Source: Maridesulfovibrio sp. (GTDB lineage: Bacteria > Desulfobacterota > Desulfovibrionia > Desulfovibrionales > Desulfovibrionaceae). Taken from it: DNA of 64,000 nt. Made by a program: the position numbers and the translations under genes. This document shows, piece after piece, positions 2,492 through 43,222 of this stretch; positions within the stretch are counted from its first letter, which is position 1; every line of letters starts with the position of its first letter. The stretch is from contig NZ_OY787459.1 in assembly GCF_963678865.1 (NCBI RefSeq), forward strand, positions 4,117,001 through 4,181,000, in the 5' to 3' direction. The notes beneath the pieces are model-generated. The model had not been told where the DNA came from. It ran no database searches and saw nothing but the letters and a program-made list of their open reading frames with translations.

Positions 2492-4294
2492 GTGAAAAAA
2501 ATATCTATCCGTAAAAAATTAAGTCTTTTAATTTTTATCGCTGTTTTTACGGCGTTGGTTTCTATCGGCATCAGTGTGTACAGTTCCAGCGTACTTGCAA
2601 AGATTGAATCGGGTAAGACCGGTGACATTATGTTGGAGGACCAGAAGGAAAAAATTAAGGCCACTGTTTCCTCAATGGCTGCAGTCCTGTCCAACTCTGT
2701 TGCCGGAATGACTGATGAGCAAGAAAAGATACAAAAATTCAGAGAACTGATTAAAAATGCTTTTTTTGAAAAGGATTCGTCAGGTTATTATTATATATAC
2801 CGCGATACAGTGAATGTCGCTCACCCTGTGAAACCGGCATTACATGGGAAAGACTTGTATGATTTGAGAGGAAAGGACGGGGTTTATTCTGTGCGCGAAC
2901 TGGCACGCGTAGCAAAAGCGGGCGGTGGTTATGTTCATTTTACCTGGGATAAACCGGGTGTGGACGGCACTGTCCCCAAACTTGGATACGCGATGATGAT
3001 TCCCGGAACTGACTATTGGATAGGGACAGGCGTATACATAGACAATATTGCCAAAGAAGTTTCTAAGGTTGAACAGGAATTGGCTGATGTTGAAACAAAG
3101 GCTCTGCTTTATGAAGTAGGTATTTCAGCTTTTATCATCCTGCTGGTCCTTATCCCTCTGGGAATAAAAATTTCTGGAAGTATCATTTCTCCAGTGGTGA
3201 AAACTAAGGAAGCAGCCATGAAGATAGCTTCAGGAGACTTTGATGTTTCCCTGGATGTTACCAGTAAAGATGAGTTGGGTGAACTGCAGAACTCTTTACT
3301 TGAAATGGCAAATTCTTTGCGTGACAATATTGCTGAAATAACCGCAAAAGAACATGAAGCTTCCCAGAAAGCACAGGAAGCGATGCAGGCTAGTGCAGAT
3401 GCCCATACTGCAAATGAATTAGCTGAACGCAAAACTGCAGAATTGTTGGAAGTCGCCAGCCAGATTGATGATGTGGTGCATTCCATATCCTTAGCCTCTG
3501 ATAGTCTTATGACTCAGATTGAGCAGTGTACTGTCGGGGCTGATGAGCAGGCAAGTAGGGTTGGCGAAACTGCCAGTTCAATGGAGCAGATGAACGCTAC
3601 TGTGCTTGAAGTTGCCCGGAATGCATCAGAAGCGGCTGACATGGTCAGTAATGCTCAGGATATGGCCGGAAAAGGTGCAGATATTGTATATCAGGCAGTT
3701 GACGGCATAGAGAGTATTGCCGATCAGTCAGAAAAATTAATGAGTGATATGTCTTACCTGGGAGAACAGGCTGAAGGTATCGGTGACATAATCAATGTGA
3801 TTAACGATATCGCTGATCAGACAAATCTCTTGGCTTTGAATGCGGCTATTGAAGCGGCTCGGGCGGGTGAAGCAGGAAGAGGGTTTGCTGTTGTGGCAGA
3901 TGAAGTCCGCAAACTGGCAGAAAAAACCATGAGTGCCACTAATGATGTAGCCAGCGCTGTTAAAGTTATTCAGGATGAAGCCCATAAAAACATTAATAAT
4001 ACGGTTGAATCTGTAGATAAGATTTCTCATGTTACCAAGATGGCAAATGAAGCAGGGGAATCTCTTAAAGAAATAGTTCTTTTAGTTACTGATGTTTCCG
4101 CTGAAGTTCAGTCCATTGCTACCGCTGCGGAAGAGCATAGTGCTGCAAGTGAAGAAATTAATAGAAGTGTTGCCGATATTAATAGTATCTCAACACAGAC
4201 ATCGCAGGCTATGAATATGTCCAAAAACGTTGTAATGGATTTAACTGAGACCATCAAATCATTGAGCCATATGACTGAAAGAATGAAAAGTTAA
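2492..4294 (+). CDS. Methyl-accepting chemotaxis protein with single Cache sensor domain
   Basis: A 600-residue membrane chemoreceptor. From the N terminus: a transmembrane helix (about 9-31), a periplasmic single Cache domain (about 45-190, with the aromatic [14 protein letters not shown] and [10 protein letters not shown] strands typical of sCache_2), a second membrane helix (about 205-228), HAMP, and the cytoplasmic signalling domain with the invariant hairpin tip [18 protein letters not shown] near residues 447-465. The C terminus has no CheR/CheB-binding pentapeptide. I chose the GTG at 2492 because a CAGGAG site lies seven bases upstream; a longer frame from 2384 adds 36 residues of poor composition without a ribosome site. 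The ligand is unknown; sCache_2 domains often bind small carboxylates. A terminator follows. Confidence 0.9.
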
Positions 4295-4358
4295 ACTCTT
4301 ATCAAGACTGATATGTAATGCATTAATACTAATTGGTGTTTGGTGTGTTGTTATTCAA

Positions 4359-4397
4359 AGAACCCTGCGTAATATTTTGCGCGGGGTTCTTTTTTTA
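4359..4397 (+). terminator. Rho-independent terminator after the chemoreceptor
   Basis: An 11-bp stem with one G-U pair (4359-4369 with 4380-4390) is followed by seven T residues, 65 bases after the chemoreceptor stop. Confidence 0.85.
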
Positions 4398-4662
4398 GTA
4401 GACCTTGTTTTATAGCTACTCCTAACCTTGGTTTGGAAACATGTTTTATGCAAAGGTCAGCTTTTGCATGTTTGAGAGTAACCCCCCGGTTATTTTTATT
4501 TATGAAAACAGGTAATAAATTCATATATGTGTTTTTTCTAACACATTAGATTTATTGACTTTGTTATGCAGGTAATATTCTATGGGATTATTAAAGTAAT
4601 TGTCAGGCATTCAGTCGGTTTCTGACAATCGGTTGCCGGCCTGATTAAACTGAGGAGGTTCC
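4398..4662. promoter_or_regulatory. Leader/promoter region of the formate dehydrogenase operon with inverted repeats
   Basis: No gene is seen here. Two inverted repeats stand out: a 7-bp pair (4448-4454 with 4463-4469) and an 8-bp pair, ATTGTCAG (4599-4606) with CTGACAAT (4622-4629), centred about 48 bases before the fdhA start. The second could be an operator or a leader hairpin. A strong GAGGAGG ribosome site precedes the ATG at 4663. Promoter elements cannot be assigned by eye. Confidence 0.4.
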
Positions 4663-40386: not shown

Positions 40387-40882
40387 TGATCATCCAGCTT
40401 GAGATTTCAGCGCACAGTTCCTCGCGTGCATACAGCTCAGAACCGAAAGGTCCGCCTTCGCGATCCAGTCTTGCGGGGTGTCCGGTTCAGTGACCGAGTT
40501 CATGCAGCGCGGTGCTGTAATATTTATCAGGACTGTCAAAGGCAGCCTTTAAAGGCATATGAATTTCATCAGTGGAAGGGCGGTAGAACGCCCGGTCGCG
40601 CTGATCGTGAATAATGTTTGCCGCGGAGTTGGTCAGTATTTTCTCGGCGCGCTCGTCAGGATTCCATGTGATTTTCCGGCCATCCCATTCCGGTATACCT
40701 TCAATCTGGCTGGCGTGGAACACATTCGCAAAACGGACAATGGGCCTTTCCAGTAGGACCGCCGTTTTTTGCTTGTTTCCATCCTCATCGAGTACAGGCT
40801 TGCCGTCATCGTCGGTGAGCGTCCTTTCCTGCGACATCTGCCAGAATACAATGGGCGGTGATTTTGAACCTCTCTTGACCTG
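40361..40882 (-). pseudogene. ArdC/TraC-type antirestriction (zincin) gene, broken
   Basis: The decoded protein runs PIVFWQM...RPIVRFANVFHASQIEGIP...AFYRPSTDEIHMPLKAAFDSPDKYYSTALHELGH, the ArdC N-terminal ssDNA-binding plus zincin domains, as in plasmid primase TraC and antirestriction proteins. Directly after HELGH the frame has TGA (40487-40489) where TGG (Trp) is expected, and beyond it the homology resumes as TGHPARLDREGGPFGSELYAREEL. A missing base near 40870 breaks the 5' side (QVK / RGSK), and the true N terminus is gone. Three lesions make it a clear pseudogene. Confidence 0.8.
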
Positions 40883-41132
40883 CCAGAACCTTGAGCAGCG
40901 GCCTGTTACCGTTCAGGCCCAGATAGTGCCGCTCAAGGGAAATTTGGAAATATGGATTTGATTCGTCGAGATTGAAGCTTACGAAGTCACCACGGGAGGG
41001 TGTTCCGGGCGTAATCTGATAAATGCCCATGGGCATGGAAGAGGTGAAGTTCACCCGGTATCCGGCTTCATGGACTATGAAGCCGACTGCCGCAGCGTGG
41101 CAGATGAATGAGATCAACAGGAGCTTTCTCAT
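40806..41132 (-). pseudogene. traF: Truncated conjugative signal peptidase TraF
   Basis: 108 codons beginning with a hydrophobic signal/anchor and the S26-family block SSMPMGIYQI (nucleophile Ser) and RPLLKVLAG (general-base Lys). TraF proteins are usually 165-180 residues; here homology stops at about 40885, where the ArdC-like sequence begins. The last 23 codons are therefore read from the wrong gene. In IncP-type plasmids traF lies in a transfer operon that also contains traC, so an internal deletion between these genes is a plausible cause. Its ATG overlaps the stop of the upstream gene (ATGA). Confidence 0.75.
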
Positions 41133-42763
41133 GCTTTCGCTCCCTGAATATTTTTGGCCCAGAATGTTTTACGCCAGCCACGTTTTGATGCGTCAGTACT
41201 CAAGGGAAGCGAGCAGCGTGCATCAATCTCGTTCAGTTCATCGTCGCTGAGTGTTGCCAGCCACGATTCGAAGTCTGCGTCCTGTGCATCCTGTTCAGCC
41301 TGTTTAATCTTCTTCTGCTCAATGGATTTTAGCTCGGTAAGGATTTCCTTTTCTTTCTTGGCATTAGCAAGGGCCTGCTCATTGGGAGTCAGGAAGCCCA
41401 CAGGCCTGCGCCAAGTTCCTTTGCTCTTCAGCGTGGCAAAGAGATAATTGCAGGGGCCTTTGCGAGCTTTCGGGAATGTGTCGTGTTCCAGTTCCCATTC
41501 AGCGGCATGCAGGGAGTTCTCGATATCAAGGATTGTTTCATCGAAGGAAAGCCGGTGCTGTATGATCTGGCGGATCTGATCCGGACCGAATCTTTCATCA
41601 TGGAGTCGGGGCCAGAGGATTTGAAATTCGTCTGTGCTGAATGAAAACAGCCTTCGCGCCCAACGTTCTTCTTCATTTTCTTCAGAACCAGATAGATTTT
41701 TTATCTGTCTATCTAATAGTACCGGGTTCTGATACCGATCAGCATTGGTATCGGACTGCGGAACGGAATTGCTCTCAACCCTTGATTGGCAAGGGGTAAC
41801 GGCTTGTTTGACAGCTAAAGCAGCATTGCTAACAGGATACCGATCATGTTTGGTATCAGGATCGGTATCATTACGCTCATGATACCGGTCATGTTCGGTC
41901 ACACCGGGCTGATACCGATCAGCATTGGTGACATTCTGAGCGGGAAAGGCTTGCAACAGCTCCTTGATACGTTCCATGGGACCGCTGTTCAGCTTGAGGA
42001 TAACGCCGAAGCGAGGGCCGCGTTCGTGCTGACGTTTAGTGTATATTCCGGCTTCGTGTCCGTGCTTGATTACCCGCCGCGCGGTTACTTCGCTGCAAGC
42101 TGCGTCTCTGGCAATAGATTGAATTACAAGGGATATTTCGTCCTGTTCGGTTTGCTCAGAAAGAGTGGAGATGATACCGAACACGCGTTTGCCCTGATCG
42201 GATAAACGGGAAAATAGCGCGTCTGTATTGTCTGAAATATTTAATGATTGGGTGCTTGGCTTTGCGTTTTGGTCTTGCTTGTTACCAAAGTTTATTTGAT
42301 ACCGGTCACTATTGGTAACACCTTGCACTTGATACCGATCATGATAGGTATCAAGCAGTAAGCCGTATTCCTGCTTGTAAAGGCTCAGGAAGAATTCGCA
42401 GCGTTCTTTATATAAGGTAATGATGCTGCCATGCCTGCGTCCGGCCTGATGATTAGTGCGCTTGAAAAGTCCTGCTTTTTCGCCCTTGGGAAGGGTGCGC
42501 AGGACGCTTAATTTGCTGCATTTTACACCATATTGCAGGCTGGAGATCACAAAAGGAAACGGCTCACCTGATTCGACAGTGCTCGGTCCGGACTGGATAA
42601 GAGCGGCAAGAATCCTTTTGCCGGTAACGGAAAGACGGTTGTAGAATCCGGCAATATCACGGCGCATAAGCTTCTTCAGATGATCGGTATCAGCAGGGAC
42701 CTGATACTGATCATCGCAGTTACCAGAGCCATAATATTTGTGTTTGTGTGCCGTTGCATTCAT
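41129..42763 (-). CDS. Replication-initiator-like protein with two similar winged-helix regions and DRYQ linker repeats
   Basis: A 544-residue DNA-binding protein. Two segments (about residues 40-120 and 185-270) appear to be repeats of one winged-helix unit: RLSVTGKRILAALIQSG...KRTNHQAGRRHGSIITL and RLSDQGKRVFGIISTLS...KRQHERGPRFGVILKL. The linkers contain DRYQ-type peptides at least six times. The C-terminal third is charged and coiled (LANAKKEKEILTELKSIEQKK). Architecture recalls plasmid or phage initiators such as lambda O, but I cannot name a family. AAGGAA precedes the ATG, and it is coupled to traF. The coding DNA holds the palindromic repeats described separately. Confidence 0.7.
   Translation of the reverse strand: MNATAHKHKYYGSGNCDDQYQVPADTDHLKKLMRRDIAGFYNRLSVTGKRILAALIQSGPSTVESGEPFPFVISSLQYGVKCSKLSVLRTLPKGEKAGLFKRTNHQAGRRHGSIITLYKERCEFFLSLYKQEYGLLLDTYHDRYQVQGVTNSDRYQINFGNKQDQNAKPSTQSLNISDNTDALFSRLSDQGKRVFGIISTLSEQTEQDEISLVIQSIARDAACSEVTARRVIKHGHEAGIYTKRQHERGPRFGVILKLNSGPMERIKELLQAFPAQNVTNADRYQPGVTEHDRYHERNDTDPDTKHDRYPVSNAALAVKQAVTPCQSRVESNSVPQSDTNADRYQNPVLLDRQIKNLSGSEENEEERWARRLFSFSTDEFQILWPRLHDERFGPDQIRQIIQHRLSFDETILDIENSLHAAEWELEHDTFPKARKGPCNYLFATLKSKGTWRRPVGFLTPNEQALANAKKEKEILTELKSIEQKKIKQAEQDAQDADFESWLATLSDDELNEIDARCSLPLSTDASKRGWRKTFWAKNIQGAKA
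41731..42724. repeat. Family of ~22-bp imperfect palindromes, GATACC(N10)GGTATC, inside the rep-like gene
   Basis: Copies start at 41731, 41836, 41881, 41911, 42298 and 42331, with a weak copy at 42703. The best are 41731-41752, 41836-41857 and 42331-42352, with perfect GATACC/GGTATC arms; the middle usually reads GATCA or GGTCA. Extra half-sites GATCGGTATC lie at 41860-41869 and 42682-42691 and encode a different peptide (DTD) from the usual DRYQ. Conservation in two coding frames suggests that the DNA itself is selected, as expected for iterons or partition sites. Confidence 0.75.
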
Positions 42764-43135
42764 GGGCTGATTCCTTGGGGATCAGGTTCAGTTGAAAAAA
42801 GAGCTTTAAGAGTCGAAAAAATCAGGGAGTTCTCCCTAACTAAAATTATTGCCACGAGGGCGGACATGAAAAAGCTTGCTTAGGTCCGTATAACTTTGGT
42901 CGGGGCTATGCTTCATGGCGGGGATGATTTTGAGAATGTTATTAAAGAGCTTGATGTTGGGTTATACATAATCTGAACGTGTCTCAGGACGCAGGAAAAG
43001 AGCACAGCGGCAGGAATCACTGTGCTTACTGGTAGTATTTCTTTACTGAAAAAAGGTGGGACAACTCCGAAAAAAGGCACAAAAAAAGGACTCACACACA
43101 ACCCTAAGATTGTTTGTAAGTCCTTGATTTTCTTG
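42764..43135. other. 372-bp region between rep-like gene and tRNA-Leu
   Basis: This is the promoter side of the rep-like gene and the right end of the accessory region. A short frame ending at 42973 (LHGGDDFENVIKELDVGLYII) could be the tail of a lost gene. The A/G-rich stretch 43050-43100 has two similar AAAAAAGG blocks. No integrase gene is visible. Confidence 0.4.
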
Positions 43136-43222
43136 TGGTACCCAGAGCGGGACTTGAACCCGCACAAGCGTAAGCTCGAGGGATTTTAAGTCCCTTGCGT
43201 CTACCAATTCCGCCATCCGGGC
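43136..43222 (-). tRNA. tRNA-Leu (anticodon TAA)
   Basis: An 87-nt class II tRNA on the minus strand, with the 5' end at 43222 and an encoded CCA at 43136-43138. The acceptor GCCCGGA pairs with TCTGGGT; the anticodon stem AGGGA/TCCCT encloses loop CTTAAAA (anticodon TAA). It has a long variable arm (CTCGAGCTTACGCTTG) and the T arm GCGGG-TTCAAGT-CCCGC. Its 3' end faces the accessory region, making it a likely old integration site. Confidence 0.96.

Follow-up and report, generated by a model that had tools for sequence, protein, structure and literature searches.

Putative iterons and an AT-rich inverted repeat within the linker codons of a Rep-like gene from Maridesulfovibrio and its relatives

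A gene of Maridesulfovibrio sp. that resembles those of replication initiators is crossed by repeated DNA palindromes, and this raises the question of whether the repeats are kept for the DNA or for the peptide that they encode, and whether the gene could contain the origin at which its own product acts. We addressed this question in a window of 64,000 nucleotides, the whole stretch of DNA that was analysed, by combining codon comparisons among homologues with a structural model of the protein and with a survey of relatives on plasmids and conjugative elements.

Palindromic sites in a Rep-like gene

The Rep-like gene is an intact open reading frame of 544 codons on the minus strand (41129–42763), for which both homologues and an AlphaFold model are available. 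The model consists of a winged helix at residues 31–133, a second winged helix at residues 179–272 and a helical C-terminal domain at residues 347–543. The pLDDT falls below 50 in residues 1–22, 135–171 and 279–360; these are the linkers that carry the palindromic sites, and according to the model they are disordered. No family match to the protein was found in Pfam, NCBIfam or PHROG. Structure searches with the winged helices returned generic matches (CodY, MarR, CRP, ORC and 4pt7, "Structure of initiator"), and the C-terminal domain, modelled alone with a pLDDT of 87, gave no significant match in a structure search of the PDB. A DnaD-like C-terminal domain, which had been guessed from the sequence, is not claimed here, as the structure search gave no usable match.

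Within the gene, the palindrome GATACC-N10-GGTATC occurs in six copies, accompanied by half-sites. This confirms the six palindromes of about 22 bp with GATACC and GGTATC arms that a sequence-only reading had reported, and it compares with 0.004 perfect copies expected per 64 kb from base composition. The arms are perfect in site 1 (41731–41752, GATACCGATCAGCATTGGTATC), which is the site closest to the AT-rich element described below, in site 2 (41836–41857, GATACCGATCATGTTTGGTATC) and in site 6 (42331–42352, GATACCGATCATGATAGGTATC). Site 5 (42298–42319, GATACCGGTCACTATTGGTAAC) has one mismatch, and site 3 (41881–41902, GATACCGGTCATGTTCGGTCAC) and site 4 (41911–41932, GATACCGATCAGCATTGGTGAC) have two each. 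In two relatives (L005 and L006), the palindrome at site 6 is perfect over a full 24 bp. If up to one mismatch is allowed, the half-site TGATACCGATCA is found 11 times in the window, where 0.15 would be expected, and all 11 lie between 41730 and 42713 within the Rep-like gene.

The forward copies encode the peptides DRYQ, DRYH or DRYP. A reverse half-site at 41859–41870 (minus strand) encodes DTDP and another, ahead of winged helix 1 at 42681–42692 (minus strand), encodes DTDH, in agreement with the earlier remark that half-sites at about 41860 and at 42682 encode a peptide other than DRYQ. Close to the gene start, a half-site at 42702–42713 (plus strand) encodes DQYQ, and one within winged helix 2 (42172–42183, plus strand), which is read in another frame as VFGII, may be coincidental. 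The sites had been placed in linkers between and after the winged helices; the AlphaFold model bears this out, although sites also precede the first winged helix.

Constraint on synonymous codons and the adjoining inverted repeat

Codon usage was compared over 19 full-length sequences, namely the window gene, seventeen relatives from the genus and one from another genus, with identities to the window gene from 84% down to about 40%. In the D-R/Q/W-Y sites, CGG accounts for 83 of the 92 Arg codons, compared with 83 of 743 in the rest of these genes (Fisher 1.5e-56), and TAT accounts for 111 of the 112 Tyr codons, compared with 99 of 201 in the rest (Fisher 3.7e-24). The Thr of the partner half-site is always ACC (110/110, against 198/510 elsewhere), and the Asp of the sites, which falls on a tolerated DNA position, has no codon bias. 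Where the site Arg is swapped in homologues, it is for Trp (TGG) or Gln (CAG), which are one-base changes in the DNA but poor swaps in a protein.

As a control for relatedness, we used the codon diversity at other conserved columns of the same 19 homologues. The 99 conserved columns with four- or sixfold degeneracy have a mean of 3.4 distinct codons, and only 4 of them are invariant, compared with 6 of the 7 site Tyr columns; between the window gene and its relatives, 30–60% of fourfold third positions differ. Homologues with scrambled synonymous codons had been proposed as a refutation of constraint on the DNA. They were looked for, and the codons were found to be frozen instead, so that the claim of the sequence-only reading that conservation follows the DNA rather than the protein is borne out by the site codons of the 19 homologues. 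On the basis of these codon comparisons, selection acts on the DNA of the sites.

The gene also contains 89 repeated 9-mer pairs, compared with 22 in synonymous-codon shuffles that preserve the protein, and 30 of 39 family genes lie above all 200 such shuffles in their repeated 9-mers. No clear repeats were found by the shuffle test in L020, L023, L029, L030 and L002, and the sites are fewer or degenerate in L012, L014, L035 and L036.

Located 16 bp beyond site 1 is an AT-rich inverted repeat with the arms AGATAG...CTATCT (41690–41714, minus strand, AGATAGACAGATAAAAAATCTATCT), a candidate duplex-unwinding element. The sites of the array as first described stand, but this adjacent and conserved element had been overlooked. 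It encodes part of the peptide LDRQIKNLS, and its codons TTA, GAT, AGA, CTA and TCT are identical in 19 of 19 homologues, including one with 63% GC (L015), the mean over the columns of the element being 1.0 codons. Elsewhere in the same genes, these codons account for 13%, 69%, 13%, 7% and 18%, respectively, of the occurrences of their own amino acid. The pattern GATAGA-N-TCTATC is present in only one other place in this genome. One genus relative at 53–54% identity (L014, in G211) has eroded DRYQ sites and an intact AT-rich element, and may use a different box.

An inverted repeat that goes beyond synonymous shuffles is present before the C-terminal domain in 38 of 68 family genes, where about 3 would be expected, the best repeat in a few of them being the palindromic site itself. 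Variants with the same symmetry and other letters are GACAGACAG, GAAAGAAAG, GTAAGTAG and TAGTAGTAG. In two distant members (L079 and L080), TAGTAGTAGTAG...CTACTACTACTA arms flank an AT-rich centre and resemble DnaA-trios on both strands; that the TAGTAGTAG arms of these genes recall DnaA-trios can be taken as a lead. A clear AGTAAGTAG...CTACTTACT inverted repeat was seen in L039 and L040, which are relatives of a second family member in the window genome (L038, see below). As far as sequence can tell, the sites are real, lie in linkers and are conserved at the level of the DNA, and the AT-rich inverted repeat coupled to them is invariant.

An unnamed family on plasmids and conjugative elements

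The C-terminal domain, which has no match in Pfam, NCBIfam, PHROG or the PDB, defines an unnamed family; 30 C-terminal domains of the family were compared with Pfam and gave no match, the RepA_N domain included. Of 348 genomes of the class, 49 have the domain, as do six genomes from other parts of the phylum sample. The family is thus present in Desulfovibrionales and beyond, and it occurs on the plasmids pDMC1, pDMC2 and pDRET01 and on N. vulgaris plasmids. A full-protein scan of genome contigs for the peptide pattern gave no match, which reflects an insensitive scan, as the genome search did find homologues.

In many family proteins, a single winged helix stands between stretches of repeated peptides, which vary from one gene to the next. 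In most relatives, the linkers before and after the winged helix contain short DNA boxes (ACCGCTCA, AGCGGACA, ACCGGACA, CGAGCACC, CAGACAAA and others), with sequences that likewise differ between genes. In pDRET01, pDMC1, L021, L026 and L027 the repeats have a period of 13 bp, and successive copies therefore pass through all three reading frames, with both strands used in several of these genes; selection on a peptide would not be expected to produce such repeats. Among 24 genes, the similarity of the boxes rises with the similarity of the winged helices (Mantel p=0.02). This would be expected of a winged helix that reads the box; shared whole-gene ancestry contributes to the correlation.

A second family member in the window genome (L038, gene 3513–4541; G000:C1:2282536-2283033) has 342 aa, a single winged helix and few repeats, and its neighbours, judged by eye, are conjugation genes of the VirB6/VirB5 type. 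A 1125-aa member on a Nitratidesulfovibrio vulgaris plasmid (L043:1154-4531) has a long N-terminal part that is dense in DNA repeats of the GTCACCCC/TGAC type; the inverted-repeat element was looked for in this gene and not found.

The genus-level copies are found in conjugation clusters, without parA nearby. In intact relatives, the cluster comprises T2SSE/PilM/shufflon pilin, TrbI, T4CP, Rep, a TraF-like S26 peptidase, a topoisomerase and ArdC. In the window, the Rep-like gene is accompanied by a truncated remnant of the traF-like S26 peptidase (40806–41132, minus strand), which falls into one gene cluster (c0) with the 171-aa Peptidase_S26 of the intact elements, and by an ArdC/MPTase-PolyVal remnant (40487–40837, minus strand) of 116 aa, compared with about 800 aa in the intact elements. 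Beside them lies a tRNA-Leu(taa) (43136–43222, minus strand), a possible former integration site; a second copy of the tRNA-Leu 3' end, as an att duplication, was looked for and not found. The interval 40487–43222 can be described as a conjugative-element remnant adjoining tRNA-Leu(taa). Because the conjugative element around the gene is degraded, the present-day function of the gene is uncertain: judging from the truncated neighbours, the window copy may be a relic, and may no longer initiate replication. Compared with its nearest relative, the gene has a dN of 0.11 and a dS of 0.52, which indicates purifying selection, reflecting mostly earlier history.

A putative initiator and a probable origin in its own linkers

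We consider it probable that the gene encodes a theta-type initiator, and that the corresponding origin, consisting of cognate iterons and an unwinding element, lies inside its own linker codons. The earlier suggestion of iteron-like sites in an initiator gene gains support from the codon conservation, from the linkers in the AlphaFold model and from the plasmid relatives downstream of parA, with binding and origin activity being putative. By analogy with RepA_N, RepC and lambda O, the winged helices would bind the palindromic sites, or iterons, that are spelled by the codons of the disordered linkers. Iteron binding would then lead to melting of the AT-rich inverted repeat, which lies 16 bp away from the last site. 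Recruitment of the host replisome would be the putative role of the conserved C-terminal domain, for which no structural match was detected. Speaking against an initiator are the absence of canonical DnaA boxes around the window gene and around most relatives, the absence of parA near the genus copies and the absence of clear repeats in a few members.

The main rival to an initiator is a function in partition, in which the repeats would constitute a parS-like centromere array and the protein, as a ParB-like binder, would act together with the ParA encoded next to it. Centromeres, too, typically have direct or palindromic repeats in arrays, and on the four plasmids examined the family gene is directly downstream of parA, with no ParB or repB gene among the annotated neighbours. 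However, no other initiator candidate was found among the genes examined on pDMC2 (8.9 kb), pDRET01 has a separate ParA-ParG pair, and the genus-level copies reside in conjugation clusters that lack parA. The conserved AT-rich inverted repeat beside the array also fits an origin better, and overall we regard a purely centromeric role as unlikely, while a dual role as centromere and initiator is possible. One could also speculate that the sites serve as operators, through which the gene is autorepressed or another regulator acts, and that replication starts elsewhere. Palindromes of this size are typical of operators, but the sites extend across about 1 kb within the gene rather than being placed at a promoter, and the AT-rich inverted repeat to which they are coupled is itself conserved across the family, which makes this explanation quite improbable. 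Least credible is the notion that DRYQ is a functional peptide motif under protein-level selection and the DNA similarity a by-product of duplication: almost all sites within the genus do share one frame and the same peptide, but this is because another frame has a TGA stop and the third gives the hydrophobic IGI/IPI, and we reject the notion on the codon and frame evidence, namely synonymous codons that are frozen at orthologous positions even where protein identity falls to about 40%, the Arg to Trp or Gln swaps, the DTD encoded by reverse-strand sites, and the relatives' repeats, which occupy three frames and both strands.

An initiator with an internal origin would not be without precedent. 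The O protein of lambda is a winged-helix initiator with palindromic iterons of about 18–20 bp in a linker-coding stretch of its own gene, next to an AT-rich melting region. The sequence-only reading had invoked it as a precedent for iterons inside an initiator gene, and the likeness can be upheld, as palindromic iterons within the gene and an adjacent AT-rich region are both present here. In contrast to lambda O, the sites here are distributed over three linkers around two winged helices, the AT-rich element has the form of an inverted repeat, and the gene is carried by plasmids and conjugative elements; no homologues were found in phage records or viral contigs, and there is no PHROG or Pfam match.

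In the RepA_N replicons of Gram-positive bacteria (pSK41, pAD1), the Rep boxes lie centrally in rep, where the corresponding linker is dispensable, between a winged-helix N-terminus and a conserved C-terminal domain that contacts the host machinery (PMC5703833). The boxes described here share with these their position within the gene, between the DNA-binding and C-terminal domains, and their conservation at the level of the DNA. They differ in that there is no Pfam match to RepA_N (PF06970), that boxes are found on both sides of the winged helix together with a conserved inverted repeat, and that the hosts are Desulfobacterota; the structure search with the C-terminal domain detected no DnaD-like fold. 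In the RepABC replicons of Alphaproteobacteria, oriV lies inside the gene for RepC and includes an A+T-rich region, in which silent changes abolished replication, and RepC of p42d has no iterons; replicons with the origin inside the initiator gene are known, and are considered "uncommon but not exceptional" (PMC3155836). The likeness to RepABC is that a partition ATPase gene, here the upstream parA of the plasmids, adjoins an initiator gene, here a putative one, with an internal origin, whereas the iterons are abundant here, repB is missing among the annotated neighbours and there is no RepC Pfam match. The family also differs from the iteron initiators of the Rep_3 type (RepE, pi, TrfA), with no Rep_3 Pfam match despite two predicted winged helices. 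A prior description of the family was not found in the literature searched, where most subscription papers were not covered.

With somewhat less confidence than for the initiator itself, we lean towards an undescribed family of Desulfobacterota plasmid/ICE initiators in which the whole origin would be held in linker codons, as cognate boxes of 8–22 bp on both sides of the winged helix plus a symmetric AT-rich inverted repeat. As the boxes could diverge together with the DNA-binding domain, each compatibility type would have its own peptide-repeat shadow, and the inverted repeat, with TAG/CTA triplets that in some members resemble paired DnaA-trios, would serve as a two-sided unwinding element. 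What appears to be new, as read from the sequences, is an unnamed family of putative initiators in which boxes flank the DNA-binding domain, repeats pass through three frames and an inverted-repeat element is conserved. Repetitive peptides can thus be the shadow of selection at the level of the DNA, the repeats of several relatives passing through all three reading frames. The arrangement offers a compact and testable origin for a plasmid family whose gene, on the four plasmids examined, is annotated just as "hypothetical" or as an HTH protein. If it is confirmed, a single gene could provide sulfate reducers with a shuttle replicon, and compatibility would be predictable from the sequence of the repeats.
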